Part shown: positions 1 through 9,465 of the stretch, piece after piece
How positions within the stretch are numbered: position 1 is the stretch's first letter
How the letters are laid out: the number at the start of each line of letters is the position of its first letter
From: Nitrosopumilaceae archaeon
Lineage (GTDB): Archaea > Thermoproteota > Nitrososphaeria > Nitrososphaerales > Nitrosopumilaceae
Direction of reading: 5' to 3'
NCBI GenBank assembly: GCA_013330055.1
Contig: DUJB01000039.1
Coordinates: 1 to 9,465 of the forward strand
Length of the DNA: 9,465 nucleotides
The notes under the pieces: generated by a model
What the model was told of the DNA's origin: nothing
The model's input: only the letters and a program-made list of their open reading frames with translations
The model's database searches: none
Program-made: the position numbers and the translations under genes

Positions 1-173
1 GCACTCTTGCTAGTTGGATATTTGAAAAACATTCTGACTAATTCTTCTGCTTTTTCACAAGTTTTACATTCAATTATCGCTGCCATTTTACTTACACATA
101 TAATACAAAATGGTTTCCAAATACCACATTCTAATTCGTTACAAATTTCACATTTGATATTATCACACATCAT
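1..173 (-). CDS. Cysteine-rich zinc-binding protein, C-terminus cut by window edge
   Basis: Only the first 57 codons are inside the window; the frame is still open at base 1. It starts ATG-ATG at 173. An SD-like GGGGATG lies about ten bases upstream, and the stop of the upstream oxidoreductase is 23 bases away. Cysteines stand at residues 3, 8, 11, 16, 23, 26, 36 and 39, giving three CxxC pairs (CEIC, CIIC, CKTC), enough for one or two zinc sites. The part after CKTC is helical (EKAEELVRMFFKYP) and recalls the tail of the zinc protein at 2004-2165 (CGKCIKMFQKHP). I infer zinc binding; the molecular role is unknown. Confidence 0.72.
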   Translation of the reverse strand, partial: MMCDNIKCEICNELECGIWKPFCIICVSKMAAIIECKTCEKAEELVRMFFKYPTSKS

Positions 174-195
174 TGTTAACTTACATCCCCTTTAA

Positions 196-591
196 TCATA
201 TGTCAATTACAACCCCACTTGTTAGAATACTGCATGATCTGATCATTACACCCTTTACAGTTTTACAGTCAGTAGTACATTCATTCAAATCAAAAGTATT
301 TTTATTATACTCATTATTTTTTCTTACAAAAAAATATTTGATAAGTTGTTTTAATCCTTCCCTCCCTCCAAATGCCCTTGTTTTTGTAACAAACCATGAC
401 ATTTCTAGTCCTTCGTAATTATTTTGGAAAATTGATTTTTTGAATGATTTACCTTGTTGTGTATAGTGTCCTATCATAGTTATCCTACCACCATAAATTC
501 TGTTTACATATTTTGCGTATGTAGTACATGAAGTACAAAGATTGTCATAGATCAGTACAGGAAATTTAATTGATTGATCATCTTTGTTCAA
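196..591 (-). CDS. DCC-family (DUF393-like) thiol-disulfide oxidoreductase
   Basis: The sequence shows a thioredoxin-like beta strand running into the DCC signature: PVLIYDNLCTSC, with Asp16, Cys19 and Cys22 counted from the TTG start. A basic helix, the strand RITMIGHY, a WFVTKTRAFGG strand-turn (Trp66) and GGREGLKQLI follow, which is the order seen in DUF393 proteins. The family is predicted to exchange thiols and disulfides through the CxxC pair; substrates are mostly unknown. Cysteines 105, 109 and 120 in the tail are extra. There is no signal peptide, so it is probably cytosolic. An ATG at 636 would overlap the upstream gene by 59 bases. TTG at 591 has GGAG ten bases before it and a 14-base overlap, so I prefer it (131 residues). 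This is the only enzyme-like protein I recognise here. Confidence 0.78.
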   Translation of the reverse strand: MNKDDQSIKFPVLIYDNLCTSCTTYAKYVNRIYGGRITMIGHYTQQGKSFKKSIFQNNYEGLEMSWFVTKTRAFGGREGLKQLIKYFFVRKNNEYNKNTFDLNECTTDCKTVKGVMIRSCSILTSGVVIDI

Positions 592-859
592 AATATTCTT
601 TCTCCAAATGAATTTCTGGTAACATCCCACCACCACCTAATAAAGATATTTTGGGTGTATGCAGTAAATTGTTAACACAGTTAATACACATGTAACCACG
701 CCAATGATCCTGATATTCATCATCCATAACAAAAACATGATAGCCTGTAATCTTTTCCCATAAGGTAGGATCTAATGGTTCGCAGTTTACAACTGTTACG
801 GTTTTTTTACACTCTCTACAATATCCTGTATCTAATGCAGTTGCAAATTCAAATTGCAT
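578..859 (-). CDS. Zinc-ribbon protein, CxxC-x40-CxxC
   Basis: A 93-residue soluble protein. CREC (Cys14, Cys17) and CINC (Cys58, Cys61) are two zinc knuckles separated by 40 residues that contain an aromatic and acidic stretch; Cys26 and His52 are spare candidate ligands. The tail has a GGGG turn and an acidic end. The start ATG at 859 shares a base with the upstream stop (TAATG), so translation is probably coupled. The spacing suggests a rubredoxin-like ribbon with a long insertion. I do not recognise the family, and zinc binding is inferred from the Cys pattern alone. Confidence 0.8.
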   Translation of the reverse strand: MQFEFATALDTGYCRECKKTVTVVNCEPLDPTLWEKITGYHVFVMDDEYQDHWRGYMCINCVNNLLHTPKISLLGGGGMLPEIHLEKEYFEQR

Positions 860-1113
860 TAGTTAGATTTGTTTGATATTGCCAATAAAGTTTTTGGTAG
901 TTCTCTTGAAACAGATATTATTGCATAAACTGCAAAACTAAAAGTTCCACCCAACATCACGAAAACTCCTAATTTTTGTTCAAATGTGGATAAGTTTATG
1001 TCGTTAGGAATTTCAGTTATTGCTGTTAAGAGTACAACACTAGTAGCACCAAGAACAACTAAGCTTAGACATAATGTATAAAATAATATTTTTTTATGTA
1101 ATTTAGAATCCAT
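859..1113 (-). CDS. Two-span membrane protein
   Basis: 84 residues. A basic N-terminus (KLHKK) is followed by a membrane span at about 10-31, an acidic polar loop (TEIPNDINLSTFEQK), a second span at about 47-68 and a short basic tail. The positive-inside rule puts both ends in the cytoplasm and the loop outside. It overlaps the upstream basic protein by 11 bases and the downstream zinc ribbon by one base. It matches the general plan of the other hairpin membrane proteins here (4859-5083, 5313-5516, 3114-3374) without visible sequence identity. Family not recognised. Confidence 0.8.
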   Translation of the reverse strand: MDSKLHKKILFYTLCLSLVVLGATSVVLLTAITEIPNDINLSTFEQKLGVFVMLGGTFSFAVYAIISVSRELPKTLLAISNKSN

Positions 1114-1354
1114 ATTTGGGTACGCCTATTATCGCCTTCATTCCAGGTTTTATGCTGATCGTTCTAAATGTTTTTGGATTAAAGTGCATTGGAGATTCTT
1201 GTCTGAACCTATATGATTTTGGCGTTATGTCAATTTTCATGTAACGAAAACCTGCTTCTCGTAATTCTGATTTTGCCTCTCCTCTACTTAGCCCTTTTTT
1301 TCTGGAAAAAATTATTGATTGGATTCGTGTAGATCGTTTGAATCTTTTTGGCAT
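1103..1354 (-). CDS. Basic small protein of a phage-associated type (IQSIIF ... YRFRQ ... FRTISI)
   Basis: 83 residues, strongly basic at the N-terminus (MPKRFKRSTR). The order IQSIIF, SRGEAKSELREAGF, YRFRQESP, FRTISIKPGMKAIIG resembles, from memory, a small domain found in phage and archaeal genomes with the pattern IQSVIF..W....A..WL...GF..........YRFRQ..P..F....FRTI..G.GIKAVIG. I cannot name the family, and the usual Trp residues are absent here. The function is unknown; the charge would allow nucleic-acid binding. ATG at 1354 lies 25 bases after the centre of the TATA-like box at 1374-1383, so the transcript is probably leaderless. There is one of the few true gaps (41 bases) upstream, which suggests this gene opens a transcription unit. 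Confidence 0.8.
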   Translation of the reverse strand: MPKRFKRSTRIQSIIFSRKKGLSRGEAKSELREAGFRYMKIDITPKSYRFRQESPMHFNPKTFRTISIKPGMKAIIGVPKYGF

Positions 1355-1363
1355 ATTATTTTA

Positions 1364-1387
1364 ATTGTTCTGACTTATTTAAAAGAA
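1364..1387 (-). promoter_or_regulatory. Promoter copy A (TATA box of the gene at 1103-1354)
   Basis: Read on the minus strand, TTCTTTTAAATAAGTCA contains an archaeal TATA-like box (TTTAAATAAG) with a T-rich element before it. The box centre (about 1379) is 25 bases before the ATG at 1354, the expected distance for a leaderless start. The same 17 bases recur at 1510-1526, and the match extends further with a 2-base indel. Confidence 0.6.
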
Positions 1388-1395
1388 CATGTGTA

Positions 1396-1491
1396 TTAGT
1401 CTTCCATTAATTCTTCTTGTGTTTTCCTGCATCTCTTGCATTTTCTACCTTTAGCCATTGTTCTACCACATGTTACACAATAATTAACCAA
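1396..1491 (-). CDS. 31-codon zinc ribbon (CVTC ... CKRC), TTG start
   Basis: The frame reads TTG GTT AAT TAT TGT and gives CVTC (Cys5, Cys8) and CKRC (Cys18, Cys21) followed by a charged tail (KTQEELMED). CxxC-x9-CxxC with a very basic middle (RTMAKGRK) is a complete single-zinc ribbon. TTG 1491 comes directly after the TAA of the upstream gene, in the same frame. The TATA-like box at 1513-1522 is centred 27 bases upstream, so a leaderless transcript beginning at this TTG fits well. A start at ATG 1458 would keep only the second CxxC. Reading through the TAA would instead append this ribbon to the upstream zinc protein. Function unknown. Confidence 0.6.
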   Translation of the reverse strand: MVNYCVTCGRTMAKGRKCKRCRKTQEELMED

Positions 1492-1755
1492 TTATGGTAG
1501 ATTGATTGTTGACTTATTTAAAAGAAGTTTTTCCAATATTGGAACTAGGCAGCATAAATTATGCTCAAATTTTATGCAAGGACAACCTATACCATAACAC
1601 TTTGTCATGGTCTTATCCTCGTTTTTTCCATGATGCCATCCAAGCTTATGACCACAAAAGCAGATTAGTTCTAGTTCATTTGACAATATTTTGATGGAAG
1701 TTTTAGAAGGCAATAAGAACATCGTTTCCATGTATGCAACCAGGAAATCCTGCAT
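1492..1755 (-). CDS. Zinc protein with CxCGH-x4-HH ... CxCxxF motif
   Basis: 87 residues from ATG 1755. Counted from there, Cys32, Cys34, His36, His41/42, Cys53, Cys58, Cys60 and Phe63 form the pattern C-x-C-G-H-x4-HH...C-x4-C-x-C-x2-F. This small zinc module recurs in phage and archaeal small proteins. The zinc protein at 2170-2292 carries a shorter version. A CC pair (68, 69) and a leucine-rich tail follow. The first 28 codons overlap another zinc-like frame (1671-1817) and have more G/C third positions than the neighbours. The true start may therefore be a later codon, such as ATG 1722 or TTG 1686. The 3' end contains a promoter for the next gene. Confidence 0.72.
   Translation of the reverse strand: MQDFLVAYMETMFLLPSKTSIKILSNELELICFCGHKLGWHHGKNEDKTMTKCYGIGCPCIKFEHNLCCLVPILEKLLLNKSTINLP
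1505..1526 (-). promoter_or_regulatory. Promoter copy B (TATA box of the gene at 1396-1491), inside a coding region
   Basis: Carries the same TTCTTTTAAATAAGTCA core as copy A and lies inside the last codons of the zinc protein at 1492-1755 (…LLLNKSTINLP). The TATA-like centre (about 1518) is 27 bases before TTG 1491. It differs from copy A by the loss of two bases just after the core. Confidence 0.55.
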
Positions 1756-1817
1756 AATTGCCTAACCGCATTACAGAGTGGACAGAACATGAATTCGTCC
1801 AACATTTTAAAACTCAT
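1671..1817 (-). CDS. 48-codon zinc-ribbon candidate (CPLC ... CSYC)
   Basis: ATG 1817 overlaps the upstream stop as ATGA, the commonest junction in this window. The frame gives CPLC (Cys12, Cys15), Cys22, CSYC (Cys33, Cys36) and Cys45, a plausible ribbon. Bases 1756-1817 are explained only by this frame. From 1671 to 1755 it competes with the start of the next zinc protein; third positions are richer in A/T here (as elsewhere in the window) than in the competing frame, which favours this one. The downstream half is unusual in being rich in Trp, Tyr, Leu and Cys. A frameshift that joins both frames is a possible alternative. Function unknown. Confidence 0.55.
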   Translation of the reverse strand: MSFKMLDEFMFCPLCNAVRQLCRISWLHTWKRCSYCLLKLPSKYCQMN

Positions 1818-2029
1818 TTAGAATTTTTAAAAATAATCCTTCCAGCTCTTAACATTGTTAAAATTTTTACCAATTCCATAGTAAACTTGAGATCCTTTTT
1901 CTCCTTTAACTGAACTCTTGCGTATTCGATTGAATCATTTGGATAACCTAAACGTTTCATTTCTTCCAAAATATCATCAGTGCTATTAAGATAATTTACT
2001 ATGTTATTCTTTTCCATACCCAAATCCAT
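1814..2029 (-). CDS. Small soluble helical protein
   Basis: 71 residues, no cysteines and no membrane span. Acidic N-terminal half (NSTDDILEEMKRLG), then PNDSIEYARVQLKEKKD, and a hydrophobic-basic helix at the end (MELVKILTMLRAGRIIFKNSK). ATG 2029 overlaps the upstream zinc protein by 26 bases; ATG 2017 would cut this to 14 and is equally possible. The downstream junction is ATGA. The Asp-Ser-Ile-Glu-Tyr-Ala helix and basic tail are compatible with a small DNA- or protein-binding helical bundle, but I recognise no family. Confidence 0.75.
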   Translation of the reverse strand: MDLGMEKNNIVNYLNSTDDILEEMKRLGYPNDSIEYARVQLKEKKDLKFTMELVKILTMLRAGRIIFKNSK

Positions 2030-2165
2030 GCTGTAATAACTTGATTAACACTGGATGCTTTTGGAACATCTTAATACATTTACCACACACAGGTGTGTCT
2101 GGAAAATTTCTTGCAATAATACCTAAAACTTTTTCTTTTTTACAGATCATGCAAATAACAGCCAT
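2004..2165 (-). CDS. Zinc ribbon, CxxC-x18-CxxC
   Basis: 53 residues: CMIC (Cys5, Cys8), a short strand region KVLGIIARNFPDTP, CGKC (Cys27, Cys30), then a basic helical tail KMFQKHPVLIKLLQHGFGYGK. ATG 2165 lies four bases after the stop of the previous zinc protein. A GTG at 2192 would add nine residues and overlap that protein's C-terminus, so I reject it. The FPD..VCGKCIK segment resembles the end of the peptide at 9249-9407 (FPICAKCVR), suggesting the two are distant relatives. Role unknown; zinc binding inferred. Confidence 0.8.
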   Translation of the reverse strand: MAVICMICKKEKVLGIIARNFPDTPVCGKCIKMFQKHPVLIKLLQHGFGYGKE

Positions 2166-2169
2166 TATC

Positions 2170-2292
2170 TTATCCAAACCAACCACATCCACATTTAGTA
2201 CATGCTATATTATAGTCATTATGATCTTCTCTGTCATGTTCACATCTATTACATTTACCTCCCTTTTTCTTCCATTCATTCCATCCAATCAT
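2170..2292 (-). CDS. 40-codon zinc protein, CxxCxH-x3-H ... CxxCxCxxF
   Basis: Starts ATG 2292 with an ATGA overlap on the upstream membrane protein. A basic, Trp-containing N-terminus (GWNEWKKKGGK) leads to CNRCEHDREDH (Cys14, Cys17, His19, His23) and CTKCGCGWF (Cys31, Cys34, Cys36). This is the same C..C.H...H....C..C.C..F layout as the protein at 1492-1755, about 400 bases away, so the two are probably paralogues. The protein ends two residues after the aromatic. It is too short for most gene callers, but the ligand set is complete. Confidence 0.8.
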   Translation of the reverse strand: MIGWNEWKKKGGKCNRCEHDREDHNDYNIACTKCGCGWFG

Positions 2293-2471
2293 AGAGTATC
2301 ATTGGTCCTTACTTCTTTTAGTGCATAATAAAATTCTGCAAATAAGATTACAACCCCTATGCCTATTGTTATTATACCAATAACCATTATCATCTCACCA
2401 TTACCGAAGATGGTGATAATAATCCAAATCCGAAGAAAATTGAGAGAAGTAAGTAGTCCATCAAATATCAT
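2289..2471 (-). CDS. Small hydrophobic membrane protein
   Basis: 60 residues. A hydrophobic segment at about 12-22 (LRIWIIITIF) is followed by the turn GNGE and a strong span at about 27-49 rich in Ile and Gly, then a charged tail (ALKEVRTNDTL). It is either a tight helical hairpin or one span preceded by an interfacial helix. ATGA junctions on both sides place it in a coupled operon between a soluble 52-residue protein and a zinc protein. No family recognised. Confidence 0.77.
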   Translation of the reverse strand: MIFDGLLTSLNFLRIWIIITIFGNGEMIMVIGIITIGIGVVILFAEFYYALKEVRTNDTL

Positions 2472-2626
2472 TGTTTAGTTATTAATTGCTTGGATTTTTC
2501 AAGTAACTTGTTTAATCTAATAATTAATTCGTCTGGGAACATATAGAATGACTCTGGTTCTTTATTGAAGAATATTAATATATCAGCAAACAGTGTGTTT
2601 TTTTCCTTATGGAATTCTTCACTCAT
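2468..2626 (-). CDS. 52-codon acidic-to-basic helical protein
   Basis: The start ATG 2626 is fixed by a near-perfect AGGTGAT Shine-Dalgarno at 2632-2638, five bases upstream. The product has a charged N-terminus (SEEFHKEKN), an aromatic middle (FADILIFFNKEPESFYMFP) and a basic amphipathic C-terminal helix (ELIIRLNKLLEKSKQLITK). There are no cysteines and no membrane span. ATGA overlap downstream. I do not recognise it; the shape is that of a small cytosolic protein that binds a partner through a helix. Confidence 0.75.
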   Translation of the reverse strand: MSEEFHKEKNTLFADILIFFNKEPESFYMFPDELIIRLNKLLEKSKQLITKQ

Positions 2627-2711
2627 TAAGTATCACCTGATCTTTATTTCTCATAAGGTAACTCATAATTACAATTGGTGAAATACTTAAGAACCACAAA
2701 CCGAGAATCAT
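2619..2711 (-). CDS. 30-codon single-span membrane peptide
   Basis: ATG 2711 follows the stop of the zinc ribbon at 2723 after 11 bases, with GGAAGG just before it. The peptide is a single membrane span (about residues 2-19, LGLWFLSISPIVIMSYL) with a short basic then acidic tail (RNKDQVILNE). It overlaps the next gene by eight bases and encodes that gene's Shine-Dalgarno. It is very short, but the frame fills the only gap here and fits the tight packing. Function unknown. Confidence 0.6.
   Translation of the reverse strand: MILGLWFLSISPIVIMSYLMRNKDQVILNE
2632..2638 (-). promoter_or_regulatory. Strong Shine-Dalgarno (AGGTGAT) for the gene at 2468-2626
   Basis: AGGTGAT, five bases before ATG 2626, closely matches the complement of the conserved 16S rRNA 3' end. 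It lies inside the coding region of the 30-codon membrane peptide and fixes the start of the next gene. Confidence 0.7.
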
Positions 2712-2722
2712 ATAGCCTTCCG

Positions 2723-2854
2723 TTATAGCCAATGAATGACACACCCACATTTACAAATCTCAGTTTCTTCTTCCATTTTTAGACTTCTTCCACAATTATA
2801 ACACTCTGGATTTCTTTCTTTTCTTCTATTATGATTCTCAGTTACATCAGTCAT
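2723..2854 (-). CDS. 43-codon zinc ribbon (CYNC ... CKCGC)
   Basis: ATG 2854, with GGATGA six bases upstream. A basic arginine-rich N-terminus (NHNRRKERNPE) precedes CYNC (Cys18, Cys21) and CKCGC (Cys34, Cys36, Cys38), ending VIHWL. The close CxCxC group resembles the CxxCxC end of the zinc proteins at 2170-2292 and 1492-1755, so it may be a divergent member of the same group. Fourteen bases separate it from the upstream stop. The basic arm next to a zinc knuckle would suit nucleic-acid or ribosome binding, but this is inference. Confidence 0.75.
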   Translation of the reverse strand: MTDVTENHNRRKERNPECYNCGRSLKMEEETEICKCGCVIHWL

Positions 2855-2868
2855 GAACTGTCATCCAT

Positions 2869-3117
2869 TTACAACTCTTTTGAATTCTTTTCGCTTTGAA
2901 TATGTTCAGGTAAAACTATTCTAATAGGATTAGAATAGACTAATCTATCTGTCTTTTCATCTTCTATTGTTATGTCTATCCTCAAAACTAATCTATCTTT
3001 TACACTAGTCATGTGAGATTTTGGTATATGTTCAGCATTACATACATCTTTATGCAATAATCCACCTTGTGTTGGACTAAATGGATTAATATGACATATA
3101 TTTTTTAGACCATTCAA
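2869..3117 (-). CDS. Unknown alpha/beta protein, TTG start
   Basis: 82 residues. The N-terminal part has scattered Cys and His (Cys8, His9, His22, Cys26, His30, His35), which could hold a metal. The rest alternates basic and hydrophobic strands (RLVLRIDITIEDE, RLVYSNPIRIVLP) like a small beta sheet and ends in a lysine-rich tail. No ATG occurs in frame before residue 36. TTG 3117 overlaps the upstream TGA as TTGA, the TTG version of the ATGA junction, so I accept it. I recognise no family. Confidence 0.75.
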   Translation of the reverse strand: MNGLKNICHINPFSPTQGGLLHKDVCNAEHIPKSHMTSVKDRLVLRIDITIEDEKTDRLVYSNPIRIVLPEHIQSEKNSKEL

Positions 3118-3374
3118 GATGAGTCACTACATTTGCATTTTATTGTAAATGGTAAAATTGGTTTTCCATCAATATAATTAGTAATGATTTTATTGAGAAT
3201 CTCAATAATTCCCCAAAATGCAAATGGAAATAATATGGAAATAGATGTAGCCATGTTATAGTTGGCAGCATGATAACTAAGAATAAACACTATCCAAATA
3301 CCACAAACTATACTGGCTATTATTCTCCCAAGAGTACCACATGTTATTGGAATACTGAGTTCATATTGTTTCAT
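3114..3374 (-). CDS. Two-span membrane protein with cytosolic CxC tail
   Basis: 86 residues. Spans at about 16-34 and 42-61 are separated by a short polar turn (SYHAANYN). The tail has basic residues and ends KCKCSDSS, a CxC pair on the predicted cytosolic side that could bind metal. Cys12 and Cys24 lie in or near the first span. TTGGTG eight bases before ATG 3374 is a good Shine-Dalgarno, and the junction with the upstream zinc protein is ATGA. Family unknown. Confidence 0.8.
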   Translation of the reverse strand: MKQYELSIPITCGTLGRIIASIVCGIWIVFILSYHAANYNMATSISILFPFAFWGIIEILNKIITNYIDGKPILPFTIKCKCSDSS

Positions 3375-3679
3375 TTTTTTTGCACCAATTCTATGAAGTC
3401 GTTTATCATTCTTGGCGAAAATGCTTTTCTACACCTGTAACATTCTATTACCATATGTTCTATGTAATTTCTTGGATCATCATTAGGTATCCATTCAAAC
3501 CGATGATCACAGCCATCGTTGACATTTAACTCCTCAAAGGTAGTTGGTGACTTCTTTTTTAATTCTAACATCGCTGCTTCAAGACTTTCTGCGGTAATAC
3601 CTAATTGTTGTAATTCTGTCTTTGAGTGATCTAACTTTGTATCAGTATGACTACGTGAAAGTGAACTAATAGTTTTCAT
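3371..3679 (-). CDS. Soluble zinc protein, CxH-x20-CxxC
   Basis: I place the start at ATG 3679 because AAGGAG lies at 3687-3692 and the open frame upstream of it is occupied by another gene. The 102-residue product has a Ser/Thr/His-rich N-terminus (MKTISSLSRSHTDTK), a helix (TAESLEAAMLELKKK), and then CDH (Cys57, His59) and CYRC (Cys80, Cys83) around a Trp/Pro/Asp loop, ending in a helix. CxHxxxW...CxxC is the layout of a zinc ribbon common in phage small proteins. The same frame stays open back to a GTG at 3832, but those 51 codons are probably non-coding. Confidence 0.78.
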   Translation of the reverse strand: MKTISSLSRSHTDTKLDHSKTELQQLGITAESLEAAMLELKKKSPTTFEELNVNDGCDHRFEWIPNDDPRNYIEHMVIECYRCRKAFSPRMINDFIELVQKK

Positions 3680-3839
3680 TGGTTTTCTCCTTTGGAACTT
3701 CTTGACTTCTAAATTTTTTATGCTTGTATCTCCATGTTGATGAACCCCAAAAATGCTTTTGACAAAGGCCATTCTTCCAACAGATTGATCTGTTAGGCCA
3801 TCTGGTTTTATTAGTGCAACCTTCTTTACCACATGTCAT
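3666..3839 (-). CDS. 57-codon Cys/His zinc protein in a frame masked by a longer open frame
   Basis: ATG 3839 overlaps the upstream stop as ATGA. Residues 3-29 hold Cys3, Cys8, Cys20, Cys26 and His29 (C-x4-C-x11-C-x5-C-x2-H), with Trp14 and Trp21 between. The rest is basic and aromatic (WRYKHKKFRS). The pattern is that of a compact treble-clef or AN1-like finger with five candidate ligands. The frame ends 14 bases into the next gene, whose Shine-Dalgarno it contains. It competes with a GTG-started extension of that next gene; the ligand pattern, the ATGA junction and the Shine-Dalgarno favour this frame. Confidence 0.75.
   Translation of the reverse strand: MTCGKEGCTNKTRWPNRSICWKNGLCQKHFWGSSTWRYKHKKFRSQEVPKEKTNENY
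3687..3692 (-). promoter_or_regulatory. Shine-Dalgarno deciding the start at 3679
   Basis: AAGGAG, seven bases before ATG 3679. It supports an internal start over the GTG at 3832 and so frees the upstream stretch for the 57-codon Cys/His protein. Confidence 0.65.
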
Positions 3840-4003
3840 TTTGGATTTCCTGAATTAATATTCATTCCAGTTGCCTTATCAACGATTCTGTAATTATCGG
3901 CTTCCTTAAGTGCAATATCAAGTAATTTTTTCATATCTATTCTTATTTCTTTCTTAAACTGTGTTTCCGATTTAGGATTTTGAATTGATTTTGCATATGC
4001 CAT
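3836..4003 (-). CDS. Small soluble helical protein with uncertain start
   Basis: 55 residues from ATG 4003: MAYAKSIQNP, a basic helix (FKKEIRIDMKKLLDIALKEAD), then NYRIVDKATGMNINSGNPK. No cysteines. The last residues fall in an ATGA overlap with the Cys/His protein. The frame is open and coding-like for another 18 codons upstream (HQIEREIVKWVYTEM), back to a TGA, but has no ATG, GTG or TTG there. A strong GGAGTG at 4065-4070 sits seven bases before an in-frame ATA at 4057, so a non-standard start is possible. Function unknown. Confidence 0.68.
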   Translation of the reverse strand: MAYAKSIQNPKSETQFKKEIRIDMKKLLDIALKEADNYRIVDKATGMNINSGNPK

Positions 4004-4053
4004 TTCTGTATAAACCCATTTTACAATCTCTCTTTCAATTTGATGACCGAAGT

Positions 4054-4377
4054 TTATATCAAATCACTCCTGTCAATTGCTAACTCCTTTTGTAATTCAA
4101 ATGGTATTTTAAATCCAGTTACATCACTGAAATTACCAATCTTTTCTTTTAATGTTTCATTCCACATTTTGTCAATTCTATGACCATAGAGTTTTTTTAA
4201 TGCCTGTCTGATATGCCTGCAATCATCACCTGTTTCATCTAATTTACACTTACATTTTCTTTTGAATTTGAACCAAATATGAGCAAGACTATGTTGGTTT
4301 GAAATATAATTGAACTCTATATCATCTGTATGTTCGTTCCATCTACTTAGAAATTCTGCTGTTTCTTTATCCATCAT
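4054..4377 (-). CDS. SWIM-type zinc-finger protein
   Basis: 107 residues. After an N-terminal helix and the strand AHIWFKFKRK comes C-K-C-x8-C-R-H (Cys42, Cys44, Cys53, His55), followed by IRQALKKLYG. This is the CxCx(n)CxH signature and local layout of SWIM domains, where the second half normally reads CxHIxAx. SWIM fingers occur in bacterial, archaeal and eukaryotic proteins and are linked to DNA or protein binding. The C-terminal 45 residues are charged helices. AAAGGTGG nine bases before ATG 4377 is a good Shine-Dalgarno; the junction is ATGA. The assignment rests on the motif only. Confidence 0.76.
   Translation of the reverse strand: MMDKETAEFLSRWNEHTDDIEFNYISNQHSLAHIWFKFKRKCKCKLDETGDDCRHIRQALKKLYGHRIDKMWNETLKEKIGNFSDVTGFKIPFELQKELAIDRSDLI
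4065..4070 (-). promoter_or_regulatory. Shine-Dalgarno without a standard start codon downstream
   Basis: GGAGTG (part of GGAGTGAT) ends just before the stop of the SWIM protein. In the frame of the next gene the codon seven bases on is ATA; the first ATG is about 60 bases away. It may serve a non-standard start or be a coincidence of the codons for Arg-Ser-Asp. Confidence 0.35.
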
Positions 4378-4862: not shown

Positions 4863-5083
4863 TTCATTTCCTTTGATTTGAAAATCATACCTTTATGATA
4901 TAGTAATAGAATTAGAATTGAAACTGGCATTATATAGAAAAAATTACCAGCGATGTTATAAAATTCATCATCGTTAAGAGATATTCCATAAACAAAAACT
5001 CCTGTCAAACAAATGAAAACGAACACTAGAGCTTTCATTCCTTTTTTTAATCTTCTAGTTGATTCTTCTCTTTCAAGAGTCAT
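4859..5083 (-). CDS. Two-span membrane protein
   Basis: 74 residues from ATG 5083, which overlaps the upstream stop as ATGA; ATG 5095 would add four residues. The N-terminus is charged (LEREESTRRLKKG), followed by a span at about 17-35, an acidic loop (NDDEFYN), a span at about 45-63 and a basic tail (HKGMIFKSKEMK). Charge predicts both ends inside. It lies in a run of hairpin membrane proteins (5513-5821, 5313-5516, this one and 4374-4862), which suggests a shared membrane task. No family recognised. Confidence 0.8.
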   Translation of the reverse strand: MTLEREESTRRLKKGMKALVFVFICLTGVFVYGISLNDDEFYNIAGNFFYIMPVSILILLLYHKGMIFKSKEMK

Positions 5084-5220
5084 GATTCTGACCATTCTCC
5101 GCTTTTACAATCAACATAATCTGTATACAATTCCCATAGAATATTTCCAACTGCCTCAGATTCTATGCCCTGTTCTCTGCAAAGCAAAAATGCGATTCTG
5201 CCAAACAATTCGTCATCCAT
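5080..5220 (-). CDS. 46-codon acidic soluble protein
   Basis: Starts ATG 5220, overlapping the upstream small gene by eight bases, and ends in an ATGA junction with the membrane protein downstream. Strongly acidic (MDDELFGRIA, GIESEAVGNILWELYTDYVD, GEWSES), mostly helical, with Cys14 and Cys38. It is too short for a membrane role and shows no paired zinc ligands. It fills a stretch between two membrane-protein genes, and its length and packing match the rest of the operon. Function unknown. Confidence 0.7.
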   Translation of the reverse strand: MDDELFGRIAFLLCREQGIESEAVGNILWELYTDYVDCKSGEWSES

Positions 5221-5332
5221 TTTTATTCATGCGAAACTTGGAATGTTTTTTGATACAGCCTACGCAATCGCAGTTGCTAAGATGGTTAGAAGTAAACATC
5301 AAATTGTTATCTTCATTTGTCCATTTTGTCAT
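5213..5332 (-). CDS. 39-codon Cys-rich peptide (NCDCVGC)
   Basis: ATG 5332 has GAGGA five bases upstream (5338-5342) and overlaps the upstream membrane-protein gene by 20 bases. The polar N-terminus (TKWTNEDNNLMFTSNH) leads to C-x-C-x2-C (Cys21, Cys23, Cys26) with His30 close behind, and then a basic tail (KFRMNKNG). Three cysteines and a histidine within ten residues could form one zinc site. An alternative start is ATG 5299 (28 codons). This frame fills the interval 5221-5312, otherwise the only unexplained gap in this part. Confidence 0.6.
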   Translation of the reverse strand: MTKWTNEDNNLMFTSNHLSNCDCVGCIKKHSKFRMNKNG

Positions 5333-5516
5333 GTTCTTCCTCATAGATTGATTCTGTCTGTGGAGGGAATAAAACACTTGCGATCACAATAAAAATCCCA
5401 ATCGCTGTTGCAGTTACAAATAGATCCGAAGATACTTTGTGAATCGAGAATAAAATAAGCGGTCCGAAAATCATGCTCGAACCAATAAGCAGGAAGCTAC
5501 TGTTAAACCGCCTCAT
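5313..5516 (-). CDS. Two-span membrane protein
   Basis: 67 residues from ATG 5516, where ATG overlaps the upstream stop as ATGA; a TTG at 5531 is possible but worse. Basic N-terminus (MRRFNSS), span at about 8-26, short loop (HKVSSD), span at about 33-51, then a Pro-Pro turn and a strongly acidic tail (TESIYEEEHDKMDK). No cysteines. It lies directly after another two-span protein. Topology probably has both ends in the cytoplasm. Family unknown. Confidence 0.8.
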   Translation of the reverse strand: MRRFNSSFLLIGSSMIFGPLILFSIHKVSSDLFVTATAIGIFIVIASVLFPPQTESIYEEEHDKMDK

Positions 5517-5821
5517 CTGTATGATTTCCAAGTTTTAAGACGTTTCTTTTCAAAATAACTCATCGTAGCTACAAAAATTAGAAAAGGTATTACACCTAAA
5601 GTAATGTAGAGGAATTCTCCACCATGCGGTACAGAGCAGGTTTTTTTGTCTATCCATTCTCCATCAATGTAATCAAAGCATCCAGAATTTTCTATCCATT
5701 CCTGCATTTGAATTTCCTGGATCGGCCAAATGAAATAAACGAAAAACATCAGAATTGGTATAAGTGATAGGCCACCAAGAAAGATTGATTTAATTAAATT
5801 AACTTGTCTTTGGTCGAGCAT
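5513..5821 (-). CDS. Two-span membrane protein with C-x13-C outside loop
   Basis: 102 residues. Span at about 12-33, a 37-residue acidic and aromatic loop with Cys48 and Cys62 thirteen residues apart (GCFDYIDGEWIDKKTC), span at about 71-89 and a basic tail (EKKRLKTWKSYR). The positive tail places the loop outside. The two Cys probably pair, and the spacing equals that in the protein at 4374-4862. Tandem GGAG motifs at 5830-5838 support ATG 5821, which overlaps the upstream gene by 23 bases. I see no known family; it could be a small envelope or host-surface protein. Confidence 0.83.
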   Translation of the reverse strand: MLDQRQVNLIKSIFLGGLSLIPILMFFVYFIWPIQEIQMQEWIENSGCFDYIDGEWIDKKTCSVPHGGEFLYITLGVIPFLIFVATMSYFEKKRLKTWKSYR

Positions 5822-6143
5822 TTTTAATTCTCTCCTCCTGTTCTTTTACAACTTTCATGGCTATTGCATTTGCATGATCCAATGAATAGTTTTTTGATAT
5901 GTAATACTTAACAATATCTGTAAAGGTTTTATCACGATCAAAAGCAGTTACAGTGAAGGTGTCAGCCTTTTCTTCCCTTGGTTTAGGTGGCTGTGTTAAT
6001 TCTGAATAGCACATCTGAAATGCAAGAAACATGCCTTGACAGATTAATGGATGAATCTCAGGATAATCTGTTTTTTCCATTTCTTCTTTTTGGCTGCTAG
6101 CTAGATCCATCTGTTGTTGAAGCCAATCCTTGCTTATTGTCAT
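5799..6143 (-). CDS. Soluble helical protein of unknown function
   Basis: 114 residues, ATGA overlap at its start. The N-terminal third is charged and helical (WLQQQMDLASSQKEEMEK). A central hydrophobic segment follows (HPLICQGMFLAFQMCYSEL, with Cys35 and Cys45), then a Pro-Lys linker (TQPPKPREEK) and a second domain (TFTVTAFDRDKTFTDIVKYY ... DHANAIAMKVVKEQEERIK). It looks like two small domains with a linker. No zinc pairs and no membrane span. I recognise no family. Confidence 0.8.
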   Translation of the reverse strand: MTISKDWLQQQMDLASSQKEEMEKTDYPEIHPLICQGMFLAFQMCYSELTQPPKPREEKADTFTVTAFDRDKTFTDIVKYYISKNYSLDHANAIAMKVVKEQEERIKNARPKTS

Positions 6144-6406
6144 GATTCCAAGGCTATTATCTGGTCGTAGACTATGCCAATTTGCTTTTTTAGATTGTCA
6201 ATTATTTGAATATCTCGTTGCCAGTTTTCAGGTCTTTTGTATAATATTTCTGCCTGAAATTTTTCAAATTGATCCCATGCACCTTTTACAGCCAGTTCCA
6301 AATCTCCTATGTGGGTTGCCTTAATTGATAATTTGGGTTTACCGTTGCAATCTTTGCAATCTCCATTATGATCTAATTGTCTTTTATGAATTTGACATAT
6401 CTCCAT
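6140..6406 (-). CDS. Zinc knuckle (CxxH-x9-CxxC) with helical C-terminal domain
   Basis: 88 residues. The first 20 hold CQIH (Cys4, His7) and CKDC (Cys17, Cys20), a compact zinc knuckle. The rest is a helical hairpin with aromatic and charged faces (LELAVKGAWDQFEKFQAEILY, NWQRDIQIIDNLKKQIGIVYDQI). GGAGAAG ten bases before ATG 6406 supports the start; it overlaps the upstream gene by 23 bases and joins the next by ATGA. Small CxxH/CxxC knuckles next to helices are typical of phage regulatory and packaging accessory proteins, but the role here is unknown. Confidence 0.8.
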   Translation of the reverse strand: MEICQIHKRQLDHNGDCKDCNGKPKLSIKATHIGDLELAVKGAWDQFEKFQAEILYKRPENWQRDIQIIDNLKKQIGIVYDQIIALES

Positions 6407-6596
6407 TAGGTTTCTTCTCCTTGTAATTAAAAAATTGATTTATATCTTCTTCTAGTATTTTTTCATTTTGTATTTTTATTAATCTATCTAATATTGCTAA
6501 TATTGGCATACTGCTTTTAGTTATAACAAGTTTTTCGAAACTTTCAACTATCTGGTTATTTCTTTCACATTTTTTATCCTGATTTGCGTCAATCAT
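6384..6596 (-). CDS. Soluble helical protein
   Basis: 70 residues from ATG 6596, which gives an eight-base overlap. Starts at 6635 or 6614 in the same frame would overlap the upstream gene by up to 47 bases, and that stretch has more G/C third positions than usual here. The product is a charged helical protein (NQIVESFEKLVITKSSMPILAILDRLIKIQNEKILEEDINQFF) with one cysteine and a polar tail. The Ser-Ser-Met-Pro turn divides two amphipathic helices, as in a small helical bundle. Function unknown. Confidence 0.72.
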   Translation of the reverse strand: MIDANQDKKCERNNQIVESFEKLVITKSSMPILAILDRLIKIQNEKILEEDINQFFNYKEKKPNGDMSNS

Positions 6597-6732
6597 AACG
6601 ATCAATCGAACCATATTTGTCAGACAGTCTTTCATCTATCCATTCTCTTTCATAATTAGAAAAAATACATAGACGATCTAATTCACTGTTAATTGATTTT
6701 AATTCTTTAATTCGATTATGAATTTCATTCAA
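6589..6732 (-). CDS. Small coiled-coil-like protein, TTG start
   Basis: I place the start at TTG 6732. GGTG lies eight bases upstream, the overlap with the previous gene is eight bases, and the frame before it has nine of sixteen codons ending in G or C, unlike its neighbours. ATG 6777 (62 residues) is the alternative and overlaps by 53 bases. The 47-residue product is a charged helix (NEIHNRIKELKSINSELDRL) with heptad-like hydrophobics, then a tail rich in aromatic and acidic residues (NYEREWIDERLSDKYGSIDRYD). Function unknown. Confidence 0.65.
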   Translation of the reverse strand: MNEIHNRIKELKSINSELDRLCIFSNYEREWIDERLSDKYGSIDRYD

Positions 6733-7009
6733 AGTCTTGACACCTTCCTTCACATTTTTTGACTTCGACAAAACCATGATCAAATAACCATTGTAAACTA
6801 TTGCTGAATTCTGAGTCTGAAATATGGCCTTCTGACCACCATCCAGCGTTAGATTTTACCCATTCTGGAATTTTATAGGCATCCCTTTCAGGTACGTTAG
6901 AAGCGTCTGTTGCTAGTAAATAAATCACAAAACTTAGAATTACTACTAGTGAAACTATGCCTAGACCGATTAAGGTATATTTTTTTGAATGATCTATTGT
7001 TTGTTCCAT
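6725..7009 (-). CDS. Bitopic membrane protein with thaumarchaeal IPxWxKxNAGWW ectodomain
   Basis: 94 residues. Short cytosolic N-terminus, span at about 12-33, linker, then the ectodomain motif IPEWVKSNAGWWSEG (residues 47-61) and HISDSEFSNSLQWLFDHGFV. I know this domain as a repeated feature of secreted and membrane proteins in Nitrosopumilus and other ammonia-oxidising archaea (pattern IPxWIKxNAGWWxxGxISDxxFxxGIQxLIxxG). Its function there is not settled. Cys86 and Cys90 close the protein on the outside and could pair. It overlaps its upstream neighbour by 16 bases. This is the best host marker in the window, and may be a domain taken from the host for surface interaction. Confidence 0.85.
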   Translation of the reverse strand: MEQTIDHSKKYTLIGLGIVSLVVILSFVIYLLATDASNVPERDAYKIPEWVKSNAGWWSEGHISDSEFSNSLQWLFDHGFVEVKKCEGRCQDFE

Positions 7010-7182
7010 TTCCTTTTCAAATCCTGAATTGTGTATTTTTTTTCTGCTTCATTCTCTGGTGAATATGATGAACCTTTTTTGTAACGATGATAAGTTGGAT
7101 AACAATTTGCACATAGTTTTTCTTCATCATCCACAATTTCTACACTTGAAGTAAGACACATGTGACACAATCCTATTGGCAT
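6994..7182 (-). CDS. Zinc ribbon, CxxC-x14-CxxC
   Basis: 62 residues: CHMC (Cys6, Cys9), an acidic strand-loop (SSVEIVDDEEKL), CANC (Cys24, Cys27), then YPTYHRYKKGSSYSPENE and a basic helix (TIQDLKRKWNKQ). The CxxC-x14-CxxC ribbon is like a rubredoxin knuckle or an archaeal transcription-factor ribbon. GAGGAG about twelve bases upstream supports ATG 7182, ten bases into the previous gene. It sits between two bitopic membrane proteins. Role unknown; zinc binding inferred. Confidence 0.83.
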   Translation of the reverse strand: MPIGLCHMCLTSSVEIVDDEEKLCANCYPTYHRYKKGSSYSPENEAEKKYTIQDLKRKWNKQ

Positions 7183-7523
7183 AGTTTTTTCTTCTCCTCA
7201 ATTAATCCCTCATAAACCTGACCGAGATTAATTAGATTATCTAAAATAGTACAATCGGCCAAGAGAACTTCGGTTATTGATTCTTCCGATAATCCAAACT
7301 CCACATACTTTGCTATGACATCTTTGTTATTGGCTAGGAATTCAGATTTTATTTTTGCTGTTAGTTCTTCTTCAGTTATTTCTGTATAATCCTTAAGCTG
7401 TAAACTATCATTAGTAACTAATCCACTTGAAATTAGGAAAAATGATAAAACTCCTGCACCTATTACTCCTGCAATTATTCCAATTTTTTTGTAATCTGTT
7501 ACTTCTTCGTACTGCTCAGTCAT
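7173..7523 (-). CDS. Bitopic membrane protein with helical two-Cys ectodomain
   Basis: 116 residues. Acidic N-terminus, span at about 14-34 (IGIIAGVIGAGVLSFFLI), then an acidic helical ectodomain (DYTEITEEELTAKIKSEF ... VLLADCTILDNLINLGQVYEGLIEEKKKLCQ) with Cys91 and Cys115. The plan of one span, helical outside part and exactly two cysteines with one near the end also occurs in the proteins at 8926-9252 and 6725-7009. GGAGGT at 7532-7537 fixes ATG 7523. The Gly-rich span could dimerise. Family unknown. Confidence 0.82.
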   Translation of the reverse strand: MTEQYEEVTDYKKIGIIAGVIGAGVLSFFLISSGLVTNDSLQLKDYTEITEEELTAKIKSEFLANNKDVIAKYVEFGLSEESITEVLLADCTILDNLINLGQVYEGLIEEKKKLCQ

Positions 7524-7677
7524 TTCTTTTAACCTCCATTAAGATCCTGTTTTCTTGGATTTTTTGCCACCTAACTATTAATTTTTTTTCAAAAAGTTCT
7601 TTTACATCTGGATTGATTCTTGAATTAAATCCCAGCCAGTTTTTTTTAAACAAAGGCATCACAATAAGATCAGTCAT
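7516..7677 (-). CDS. 53-codon basic soluble protein
   Basis: ATG 7677 with AGGTG about eleven bases upstream; an eight-base overlap upstream and another eight-base overlap downstream. The product starts MTDLIVMPLFKKNWLGFNSR and continues as a charged region and helix (NPDVKELFEKKLIVRWQKIQENR, MEVKRND) with several Lys/Arg and Trp residues. There are no cysteines. Its last codons contain the strong Shine-Dalgarno of the next gene. I recognise no family; a nucleic-acid or protein-binding helix is possible. Confidence 0.7.
   Translation of the reverse strand: MTDLIVMPLFKKNWLGFNSRINPDVKELFEKKLIVRWQKIQENRILMEVKRND
7532..7537 (-). promoter_or_regulatory. Strong Shine-Dalgarno (GGAGGT) for the gene at 7173-7523
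   Basis: GGAGGT, eight bases before ATG 7523. It lies within the coding end of the upstream 53-codon gene and shows that internal genes of this array are translated from their own ribosome sites. Confidence 0.7.
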
Positions 7678-7795
7678 GTTTTCTTAACACCTTTGTTATG
7701 TAATTCATTTCAGTTATTAGGTGAGGATCAGGATTTTTGGCTAGAAAAATTAATGCTCGTTCCCACCATTCCTTCATGAAATCTTCAGCTAACAT
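7670..7795 (-). CDS. 41-codon soluble helical peptide
   Basis: ATG 7795 follows a 33-base gap, one of the longer ones here. The frame reads MLAEDFMKEWWERALIFLAK, then NPDPHLITEMNYITKVLRKHD: two amphipathic helices joined by an Asn-Pro-Asp-Pro turn. It overlaps the next gene by eight bases. A start at ATG 7777 is also possible. Its size is marginal, but the packing and the junction match the rest. Function unknown. Confidence 0.62.
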   Translation of the reverse strand: MLAEDFMKEWWERALIFLAKNPDPHLITEMNYITKVLRKHD

Positions 7796-7828
7796 CCATA
7801 AATAAGATTATTTATGAATTACTATGAT

Positions 7829-7996
7829 CTATTGATCTTCTAAATATTCAGATATTGAATGATTCTCTTTTTTTAATTGTCGTGATTTCTTTTTTTCATT
7901 CCATTTTTGTTTGATTAGAAAACCTAACATCATTCCTGGTATTAGTGAAATCATTATACCAGTTACTATGATTCTTGCAATCTCCCAAGAATCCAT
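7829..7996 (-). CDS. 55-codon single-span membrane protein
   Basis: ATG 7996 shares a base with the upstream stop (TAATG). A span at about 7-28 (ARIIVTGIMISLIPGMMLGFLI) with a short acidic N-terminus is followed by a strongly basic cytosolic stretch (KQKWNEKKKSRQLKKEN) and an acidic end. The positive charge after the span gives an N-outside topology, opposite to the bitopic proteins at 8926-9252 and 7173-7523. No cysteines. Function unknown. Confidence 0.75.
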   Translation of the reverse strand: MDSWEIARIIVTGIMISLIPGMMLGFLIKQKWNEKKKSRQLKKENHSISEYLEDQ

Positions 7997-8268
7997 TAAT
8001 TTTTCCCCTTAAGTCGCTGTCTTTTGTTCAATTCAATACAAAACTCACTAATATCTGCTAAACAGGTCTTCTCGAAGACTGTTCCTGATTCTGGGTAAAA
8101 CCCATACTGTCGCCAATTTGCATACCATTTGATAATTCCTAATAATATTGGGTGTGCTGTCACGCCTGATTCTATAATTTTGTCATTTGTTAGAACATCG
8201 TAGATTACCGTTTTTGGATTCTGTTTTCTACTTTTTACAAAATGAATGAACTTATACTTGCACTTCAT
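7996..8268 (-). CDS. Conserved phage-type small protein (IKWYANWRQYGFYPE ... TCLADISEF)
   Basis: 90 residues from ATG 8268; TTG 8274 is an alternative. After a basic N-terminus and a strand (VIYDVLTNDK), the core at about 43-85 reads LGIIKWYANWRQYGFYPE, SGTVFEKTCLADISEFCIEL and N-K-R-Q-R. From memory this matches a widespread family of 70-90-residue phage and prophage proteins with the pattern LGxIKWxxxWRxYxFxPxxxTxFxxxCLxDIxxFxxxL. I know no established function for it. Its presence supports a viral origin of the window. The overlap with the upstream finger gene is 17 bases. Confidence 0.8.
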   Translation of the reverse strand: MKCKYKFIHFVKSRKQNPKTVIYDVLTNDKIIESGVTAHPILLGIIKWYANWRQYGFYPESGTVFEKTCLADISEFCIELNKRQRLKGKN

Positions 8269-8398
8269 AATCAATCTCAGTAAAGTTCAGTTTTTTGCCT
8301 TTATGGTGTTTTCCCACATGGAAATCAATCATATTATAAGATATAATTTCCTTGCAACCAGAGCAGGTATATCTTCTCCAAGGAGCTCTGTTACTCAT
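8252..8398 (-). CDS. C2H2-like zinc-finger protein, 48 codons
   Basis: ATG 8398, eight bases inside the upstream gene, with GGGTG about eleven bases before it. A basic N-terminus with Trp (NRAPWRRY) is followed by C-x2-C-x11-H-x3-H (Cys12, Cys15, His27, His31, with His32 next to it), close to the C2H2 consensus C-x2-4-C-x12-H-x3-5-H, and then a basic patch (KGKK). Single C2H2 fingers are found in several archaeal virus proteins as DNA-binding regulators. The tail is acidic (NFTEIDYEV). The gap before the first His is one residue shorter than usual. Confidence 0.75.
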   Translation of the reverse strand: MSNRAPWRRYTCSGCKEIISYNMIDFHVGKHHKGKKLNFTEIDYEVQV

Positions 8399-8531
8399 AA
8401 CAATTACACCCATCATATCTGTCATCATAAACAGTTTCGCAGATTGGACAGATTGAACTTCCCTTTGGGGTTTCTTTTATTTTTTCAATCCAACTTTGAA
8501 GCGTGCCTATTGAAAAAGTATCTTTTTCCAT
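8391..8531 (-). CDS. 46-codon zinc ribbon (CPIC ... CNC)
   Basis: ATG 8531 lies directly after the upstream stop (TAAATG), with AAAGGATG about ten bases before. The first half is a helix (FSIGTLQSWIEKIKETPKG). The second carries CPIC (Cys28, Cys31) and CNC (Cys42, Cys44) around an acidic Tyr/Asp loop (ETVYDDRYDG). Four cysteines within 17 residues form a small zinc knuckle. The protein ends two residues later. It overlaps the C2H2-like gene by eight bases, so the two fingers are probably made together. Function unknown. Confidence 0.75.
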   Translation of the reverse strand: MEKDTFSIGTLQSWIEKIKETPKGSSICPICETVYDDRYDGCNCYE

Positions 8532-8756
8532 TTATTCATCCTTTGATTTTTCTAGGATCTTTATCATATTTTTTCTTTGCTCTTTGTTTAGCCCATTGAA
8601 TAATGCTTCCATAATATTCTTTATATCGAACACATCAAGCCTTATCGCCTGACACTTTGCCTCAATAATGGCATTAAATTTTTCTCCTTGATATATCAAA
8701 ATTCTAAATTTGTCATTTTGAAATGTTTTACATGTTGATTCTTGTACTAACATCAT
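8532..8756 (-). CDS. Soluble alpha/beta protein of unknown function
   Basis: 74 residues, ATG-ATG start with an ATGA overlap. The first half alternates strands (FRILIYQGEKFNAIIEAKCQAIRLDVFD); the second half is a helix (IKNIMEALFNGLNKEQRKNMIKILEKSKDE). Cys9 and Cys35 are isolated. The strand-strand-helix plan is that of a small regulatory or inhibitor protein, but nothing identifies it. The final charged helix is long enough to contact a partner. Confidence 0.77.
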   Translation of the reverse strand: MMLVQESTCKTFQNDKFRILIYQGEKFNAIIEAKCQAIRLDVFDIKNIMEALFNGLNKEQRKNMIKILEKSKDE

Positions 8757-8926
8757 TTAGCTTTGTCCTTGGTTATTTCTTCTCCAATATAGAATTGTTC
8801 TAGATGTGGTAATTCTATGATTTGTCCATTCTTAAATTCAAATTTTGTATGAGTAAAACCTTGCCAAAATTTAATTACGTTTATTTTTAGAATGGTTTTA
8901 CCATTTTCTCGATAAGATAATATCAT
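8753..8926 (-). CDS. 57-codon beta-rich soluble protein
   Basis: ATG 8926 shares a base with the upstream stop (TAATG); the downstream junction is ATGA. The product reads as short strands (ILSYRENGKTILKINVIKFW, QGFTHTKFEFKNGQIIEL) followed by an acidic and aromatic segment (PHLEQFYIGEEI) and a lysine-rich end, like a small beta barrel or sheet. There are no cysteines and no membrane span. I recognise no family. Confidence 0.74.
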   Translation of the reverse strand: MILSYRENGKTILKINVIKFWQGFTHTKFEFKNGQIIELPHLEQFYIGEEITKDKAK

Positions 8927-9252
8927 TAGCAATCTAACTCCGTCATTCTATTATTTACTGCTTTCCGAGTTGGCTCTGTCATTGATTCATATCTTGATAA
9001 CATAGTATCGATTAGAATTAATCTATCACAATCTTCAAGAGTTTTTACATTTTGAATTATATTATTTTTATAGTCTTGAACTGATGCAGTTTCATACCCT
9101 ACACTACTTAATAATATAACACCAACAGCAACTAAAATTAAAGCAACCCCAGCAAGAATTAATCCCTCTTTTTGATTTGAATCTAATTTAGTTGATTGTA
9201 AATTTGGCATGTCATTGTATTTTTTTATGATCTCGTTATCTTTATCAGTCAT
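8926..9252 (-). CDS. Bitopic membrane protein with helical two-Cys ectodomain
   Basis: 108 residues. A polar cytosolic N-terminus of about 28 residues, a span at about 29-50 (EGLILAGVALILVAVGVILL), then an outside helical domain (QDYKNNIIQNVKTLEDCDRLIL ... TELDC) with Cys75 and the C-terminal Cys108. The layout parallels the proteins at 7173-7523 and 6725-7009. ATG 9252 overlaps the upstream stop as ATGA. It may belong to a set of disulfide-stabilised surface proteins; the family is not recognised. Confidence 0.82.
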   Translation of the reverse strand: MTDKDNEIIKKYNDMPNLQSTKLDSNQKEGLILAGVALILVAVGVILLSSVGYETASVQDYKNNIIQNVKTLEDCDRLILIDTMLSRYESMTEPTRKAVNNRMTELDC

Positions 9253-9407
9253 TGTTTCATTACCAGTCTAACACATTTTGCACAGATTGGAAATCTTGAA
9301 TATTTAGGTACAAAATTTCCTGTATGAAGTAAAGCCTGATTACAACGATAGACTTTACCTTTGAATAGATGTTTTATTCCACTTTTTGATAATACCCAAT
9401 GGATCAT
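9249..9407 (-). CDS. 52-codon Cys/His zinc-binding peptide, probable operon leader
   Basis: ATG 9407 lies 30 bases after the centre of a palindromic TATA-like box, so it may lead the transcript. The sequence has a basic, aromatic N-terminus (IHWVLSKSGIKHLFKGK), C-x5-H (Cys22, His28) and CAKC (Cys42, Cys45), giving a possible C-H-C-C zinc site. FPICAKCVR near the end resembles the corresponding region of the zinc ribbon at 2004-2165. It joins the next gene by ATGA. Zinc binding is inferred; the first ligand pair is less certain than the second. Confidence 0.7.
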   Translation of the reverse strand: MIHWVLSKSGIKHLFKGKVYRCNQALLHTGNFVPKYSRFPICAKCVRLVMKQ

Positions 9408-9431
9408 TTTATAATGTTATCAGTAAATTGA

Positions 9432-9443
9432 TTTATTAATAAA
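9432..9443 (-). promoter_or_regulatory. Palindromic TATA-like box (TTTATTAATAAA)
   Basis: The 12-base perfect palindrome TTTATTAATAAA is centred 30 bases before ATG 9407, which would give a leader of only a few bases. Direction comes from the gene next to it; only 22 bases of upstream sequence are in the window. It differs from the two TTTAAATAAG boxes further left. Confidence 0.4.
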
Positions 9444-9465
9444 GATTATAACTCCATTTTAGATG

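Follow-up and report, generated by a model that had tools for sequence, protein, structure and literature searches.

A dense array of predicted zinc-binding microproteins in a likely virus-like element of a Nitrosotalea-type archaeon

The stretch of DNA analysed here, referred to throughout as the window, comprises bases 1-9465 (9,465 nucleotides) of a 19,109-base contig (DUJB01000039.1) from an incomplete (77.6%) metagenome-assembled genome (MAG) of 86 contigs. Its host is a Nitrosotalea-type archaeon that oxidises ammonia and belongs to the family of Nitrosopumilus, as an earlier note on this DNA had anticipated in proposing a Nitrosopumilus-type host. Between positions 3 and 9407 the minus strand is a nearly gapless series of small open reading frames (ORFs), curated here as 44 small genes that all lie on this one strand and run leftward; 36 of the 43 gene junctions overlap, 11 by exactly 4 nucleotides, and the largest gap is 50 nucleotides. 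Seventeen candidates within this run encode clusters of cysteine and histidine suited to binding zinc, 15 with at least four plausible ligands and two that are weak (Table 1), and a hydropathy cut finds a hydrophobic stretch in 14 of the 44 curated proteins, two of these being borderline zinc candidates. Established families contribute little to their annotation: nothing exceeded the Pfam cut-off for any of the 17 candidates or the NCBIfam cut-off for ten window proteins, the best PHROG match for ten window proteins had an E-value of only 0.017, tRNA and Rfam scans of the window were empty, and searches of phage collections with the window DNA returned zero matches.

The earlier note, made from the sequence alone, had described about sixteen small zinc-type genes gathered in a way that host chromosomes seldom match, and the clustering does exceed both shuffled proteins and sampled host chromosomes. 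A strict pattern, requiring a CxxC and a second ligand pair, is present in 12 of the 44 curated genes, compared with a mean of 1.4 and a maximum of 5 in 1000 within-protein shuffles and a maximum of 3 in 1000 pooled shuffles; CxxC pairs number 23, compared with a mean of 5.6 and a maximum of 15 in the within-protein shuffles. Under a looser pattern, applied to ORFs of 28-200 amino acids (aa), 14/52 ORFs are positive on the coding strand and 0/39 on the opposite strand (Fisher p = 2e-4), and in the 61.9-kb relative of the element described below the counts are 44/237 and 19/352, respectively. When an identical rule was applied on both strands of the window, the rest of the contig, the relative and samples of host DNA, pattern ORFs numbered 12 in the window (1.27 per kb), 7 in the remaining contig (0.73 per kb) and 38 in the relative (0.61 per kb). 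Host DNA of the same MAG, sampled as twenty contig stretches (245.5 kb), held 28 (0.11 per kb), and two other chromosomes, each sampled as ten stretches of 20 kb (200 kb), held 37 (0.18 per kb) and 26 (0.13 per kb). What had been said of host chromosomes thus applies to 39 of the 40 stretches sampled, with the reservation that hosts do carry such genes and that one stretch reached 9 pattern ORFs per 9.5 kb, the next highest having 4. This densest host stretch (L084 149-2156) encodes small C2H2-like and ribbon-like ORFs, some of them unconvincing. A gene caller trained on host codons shortened or dropped Cys-rich genes, and its figures are comparable only with one another: 6/33 small window genes were pattern-positive vs 3/121 in the host sample (p = 0.003), and 7/36 when all of its window genes are counted. 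Pattern densities of HGTV-1, Hardycor1 and T4 were left out, since in GC-rich genomes small ORFs are hidden by long spurious ones; PhiCh1 was likewise left aside.

The note had also held that the proteins share scarcely any similarity, each having its own fold. The first of these statements is largely borne out, in that three profile-profile comparisons among the candidates found no homology (probabilities below 1%), yet it is not absolute, because an all-against-all blastp of the 17 gave short local matches, the best between 3-173 and 1396-1491 (39% over 23 aa) and weaker ones between 2170 and 1396, 2004 and 9249, and 2170 and 2723 (candidates named by their first position). The second is not supported: the 15 stronger candidates show about six ligand layouts among them, and the predicted models of 6994-7182 and 578-859 have in common the treble-clef-like order of CxxC, strands and a CxxC at the start of a helix, the former being a knuckle-hairpin-helix. 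Foldseek searches with the models gave only E-values of at least 1, and sequence searches of the PDB reached E-values of 0.0036 at best (3666-3839, a ribosomal protein) and 0.013 (the 6994 profile, PCF11), neither of which is convincing; we do not claim from this that better folds are absent across the PDB. The CxCxnCxH arrangement of 4054-4377 is presumably that of the SWIM zinc finger (PF04434), against which the window protein scores 13.0 bits and the best of its eight relatives 16.7, below the cut-off of 19.6 bits.

Table 1. Candidate zinc-binding proteins encoded in the window, with the ligand layout to which each of the 15 stronger candidates was assigned.
Positions	Strand	Description	Layout
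3-173	-	Zinc candidate, three CxxC pairs, truncated by contig end	CxxC...CxxC
578-859	-	Zinc candidate, 93 aa, CxxC-x40-CxxC	CxxC...CxxC
1396-1491	-	Zinc candidate, 31 aa, CxxC-x9-CxxC, TTG start	CxxC...CxxC
1492-1755	-	Zinc candidate, CxCxH...C...CxC	CxxC or CxC...CxC
1671-1817	-	Zinc candidate, 48 aa, CxxC...CxxC	CxxC...CxxC
2004-2192	-	Zinc candidate, 62 aa, CxxC...CxxC, element-specific	CxxC...CxxC
2170-2292	-	Zinc candidate, 40 aa, CxxCxH...CxxCxC	CxxC or CxC...CxC
2723-2854	-	Zinc candidate, 43 aa, CxxC...CxCxC	CxxC or CxC...CxC
3371-3679	-	Zinc candidate, CxH...CxxC; start picked within longer ORF 3371-3832	CxH or CxxH with CxxC
3666-3839	-	Zinc candidate, 57 aa, Cx4C...C...CxxH	Cx4C...CxxH
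4054-4377	-	SWIM-like candidate, CxCx8CxH	CxCxnCxH
5213-5377	-	Weak candidate, single cluster CxCxxCxxxH	
6140-6406	-	Zinc candidate, 88 aa, CxxH...CxxC	CxH or CxxH with CxxC
6994-7182	-	Zinc candidate, 62 aa, GLCHxC, helical C-terminal tail, related to host micro-zinc-finger family	CxxC...CxxC
8252-8428	-	C2H2-like candidate, CxxC-x11-HxxxHH	C2H2
8391-8531	-	Zinc candidate, 46 aa, CxxC...CxC	CxxC or CxC...CxC
9249-9407	-	Weak candidate, lone Cys + CxxC	

Ligands are conserved in the three families that have divergent relatives; for a fourth (2170-2292) the sole relative is an orthologue of 90% identity. In the 6994 family C9, C24 and C27 are kept in 11/11 sequences and C6 in 9/9 of the ORFs reaching that position; in the 578-859 family C14 and C17 are kept in 4/4 and C58 and C61 in the three sequences long enough to include them; and all four ligands of 4054-4377 are invariant in 9/9 sequences. 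It could be that a substantial share of the proteins holds a different metal or no metal, the cysteines being redox or structural, so that the run would encode a mixture of Cys-rich microproteins. We regard this as unlikely while taking it seriously, as five of 14 tested C(P)XCG proteins of Haloferax proved zinc-free and three held another metal (excerpts of PMC11241148), and as a redox-like CxxC is encoded by gene 196-636 of the same run; the layouts of four ligands, both pairs of which are kept in three families, and the knuckle-hairpin-helix model of 6994-7182 argue for zinc instead. A further zinc candidate of the element lies outside the window (L028 3780-3923 and L015 5205-5393, minus strand; 47% identity, CxxC...CxxC kept).

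Gene 196-636 (minus strand) was itself tried as a zinc protein and is excluded from the count because its single CxxC falls within the redox-like motif YDNLCxSC. This motif is invariant and is joined by a second conserved Cys pair, relatives occur on Nitrosopumilus, Nitrosotalea and Nitrosocosmicus contigs, and by its motifs the protein looks like a thiol-redox protein. Archaeal loci around these relatives have 0 to 0.35 pattern ORFs per kb, and the gene is therefore no marker of zinc arrays.

The element has a relative, with a comparable set of zinc-type ORFs, in JAHEYZ010000001.1, a sequence of 61,890 bases from a MAG of the same genus that matches Candidatus Nitrosotalea sp. nzgw14. By blastp, 5/44 window genes are common to the two, namely 196-636 (70%), 2170-2292 (90%), 6725-7009 (44%), 6994-7182 (38%) and 8532-8756 (62%), together with several genes beyond the window, and C29, another contig of the window's MAG, has genes for proteins of 463 and 1,394 aa in the same order as the relative. 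Part of the match of 6725-7009 comes from a motif shared by many host genomes; positions 6805-6877 encode this PEWVKxxAGWW-type motif, here within a small membrane-anchored protein of the element. Genes of the element include AAA ATPases, an MT-A70 methyltransferase, an HNH nuclease and a LamG-domain protein.

We read the element as likely virus-like, a plasmid being possible. The relative encodes phage-type DNA methyltransferases and a 2,665-aa ORF with FN3 repeats and PHROG tail-family matches in the 2,049 residues scanned, and the ATPase adjoining the window has matches to a PHROG annotated as terminase large subunit (E 8.8e-14) and to three phage records (24-36% identity). These features weigh against a run that belongs to a plasmid or an integrated non-viral element and whose proteins serve the upkeep of that element, an alternative that seems to us improbable, if far from negligible. 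In its favour, capsid and portal proteins found no match among the element proteins scanned, and the contig encodes a HerA-like ATPase with winged-helix traces; the ATPase adjoining the window might just as well be a HerA-type pump. Scans of viral contigs with five element queries found no relative, and nothing exceeded the cut-off for PF03175 (DNA_pol_B_2) in 2/2 MAGs (69-78% complete), a sub-threshold match occurring in G000 (E 8e-4).

Several minor observations concern the element as well. The ATPase gene (L014 9463-11186, plus strand) is divergent and lies at the right end of the window, with a start codon probably at 9463; its Walker A motif is upstream of the listed ORF, adjoining an assembly gap of two N. 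Three element proteins (L011 8891-9646 and 9689-10828; L015 1677-2033, minus strand) begin with a hydrophobic segment, after which comes EV(S/A)D(T/S)LECP, one of them with a LamG domain, and are possible surface or virion proteins. The 463-aa gene (L015 3480-4871) and its 47% relative (L028 2355-3410, minus strand) have an RHSCVHWL...Y end that by eye is tyrosine-recombinase-like, with no match in Pfam.

One member of the array has a widespread counterpart in host chromosomes. A profile of 6994-7182, built from two copies on the window's contig and one on the relative, matches 130/151 sampled Nitrosopumilaceae genomes at E <=0.001, a count in which both element carriers are included and the weaker matches were not read individually; the best host matches reach about 1e-12 to 1e-13 (best E 4e-13), and six examples align with the element copies at 13-15 identical of 25-26 residues. 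The 18 loci ranking directly after the elements, one of them the source of the probe, all encode GLCHxC...CxxC beside a PfkB-family kinase, and in these short loci NAD kinase is present in 13 and ribosomal protein S26e in 10 (Pfam, single examples). Among twelve further host loci chosen from the match list, two lie in an IF5A-Dph6-SRP54 neighbourhood, one beside PfkB and nine in neither. In the window's own genus chromosomal matches are less strong (E 2e-4 to 2e-7), and in 3/3 MAGs they fall between the genes for IF5A and diphthamide synthase, beside SRP54 (Pfam, one example). The element copies sit in arrays without PfkB-NAD kinase or IF5A-Dph6 neighbours, and a C-terminal tail with DLKxKW is present on 6994-7182 and C6:10267-10500 and absent from the second copy on the contig (14119-14229) and from the host examples. 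The membership of 6994-7182 in this chromosomal micro-zinc-finger family is new here, and the neighbours of its host relatives may offer a lead, pointing to NAD(P) metabolism and translation factors. The other candidates examined are nearly element-specific: 578-859 was found in 1/151 genomes, 4054-4377 in 2/151, and 2004-2192, 3666-3839 and 6140-6406 each in 1/101, with three metagenome-protein matches to 578-859 and eight to 4054-4377.

Much of the first step in nitrification is the work of ammonia-oxidising archaea, and little is known of how viruses and other elements control them. The array, dense and likely zinc-dependent, supplies a defined list of candidate takeover factors. With modest confidence, we favour the reading that the window belongs to an element, likely virus-like, of a Nitrosotalea-type archaeon and that about 15 of its 44 small genes encode predicted zinc-folded proteins, which are likely compact binding modules for host takeover. 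The run would be transcribed as one or a few units, and its proteins made during infection, presumably by a virus rather than a plasmid; modules stabilised by zinc, rather than by another metal, would then grip host proteins or nucleic acids, acting alongside about a dozen small proteins with hydrophobic stretches from the same run, and 6994-7182 might compete with or replace its host relative. It is tempting to go further and to imagine takeover by the swapping of micro-adaptors, in which at least one adaptor of the kit was captured from the host GLCHxC family, was given a new C-terminal helix, and now displaces host adaptors near the PfkB-NAD kinase and IF5A-diphthamide-SRP54 genes, thereby reprogramming NADP supply and translation. 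We offer this as speculation and think it unlikely. The tie of 6994-7182 to a widespread host microprotein with recurring neighbours provides a testable entry point to the functions of both.

Dense arrays of co-oriented small genes outside the structural module are a known site of counter-defence genes, and the proteins could form a battery that blocks clustered regularly interspaced short palindromic repeats (CRISPR) or other host defences instead of steering host gene expression. A widespread host relative for only 1/6 of the families searched in host genomes would suit such a role. We nonetheless think it rather doubtful, in that no known anti-defence family was matched (the PADLOC library was not scanned) and the host relatives of 6994-7182 adjoin PfkB-NAD kinase and IF5A-Dph6, not defence genes. 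That the zinc ORFs arose by chance in AT-rich DNA, as the low yield of the host-trained coding model (just 7/36 pattern-positive, others shortened or skipped) might suggest, is highly improbable and is rejected on the strand contrast and the shuffle excess, as well as the relatives with kept ligands and the enrichment seen by that same caller.

Viral sets of CxxC microproteins in archaea are already known, and the array of zinc modules described here is most like those of the HF1-group haloviruses. Serpecor1 and Hardycor2 have 23 and 21 CxxC genes, 14 and 12 of them encoding proteins shorter than 100 aa, and the CxxC proteins of this group are numerous, small, mostly of unknown function and absent from the virion module (passages of PMC7230728); Hardycor1 has ten such genes (excerpts of PMC7911831). 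The likeness lies in the many Cys-pair proteins shorter than 100 aa in one archaeal element (12/44 by the strict pattern here), whereas the HF1 group consists of tailed viruses of haloarchaea with a lower density of such genes, and the passages on it mention no link to a host micro-zinc-finger family such as that of 6994-7182. Because density, layouts and the tie to a host microprotein family differ, we count the array as a variant of something already described, denser and tied to the host. Pattern ORFs on the coding strand of the relative number 1, 3, 4, 6, 5, 6, 3, 2, 3, 1, 0, 0 and 0 per 5 kb, the empty end being that of the giant ORF. The parallel between this pattern-free end and the HF1 virion module is only suggestive, because ORFs nested in long ones are passed over by the rule and the CxxC protein of 196 aa at 50.2-50.8 kb exceeds the length counted.

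For elements of ammonia-oxidising archaea, we found no comparable set in searches of one open-licence library, including passages of PMC10866085, PMC6563490, PMC11849493 and PMC9859776. Single zinc-binding genes do occur there: hypothetical spindle-shaped viruses of these archaea have one conserved protein with a zinc-binding domain (part of PMC10866085), and one such gene is mentioned in the legend of a figure about archaeal proviruses (part of PMC6563490). Nitrosopumilus spindle-shaped virus 1 (NSV1; Thaspiviridae) infects the same host family and has mostly orphan genes (PMC8491892); likened here by description, it has a genome of 27-29 kb with a protein-primed PolB, whereas the relative of our element is 61.9 kb and neither MAG has a DNA_pol_B_2 match over the cut-off. 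Thaspiviridae genomes are linear with terminal inverted repeats; the ends of the element are unassembled. Small C2H2-type zinc fingers are represented by AFV1p06 of Acidianus filamentous virus 1, which binds DNA (excerpt of PMC5569661); it is a single protein as opposed to an array, and is likened by description only. For 6994-7182, the known systems considered include the sigma-G inhibitor CsfB of Bacillus subtilis, one of the CsfB/Gin anti-sigma zinc fingers. On the chromosomal side, Haloferax encodes proteins shorter than 70 aa that are predicted to have a site for one zinc, a single genome having 49 of them (part of PMC11241148), each with two C(P)XCG motifs; membership of the window candidates in that set was rejected, as 0/17 have two such motifs and three have one.

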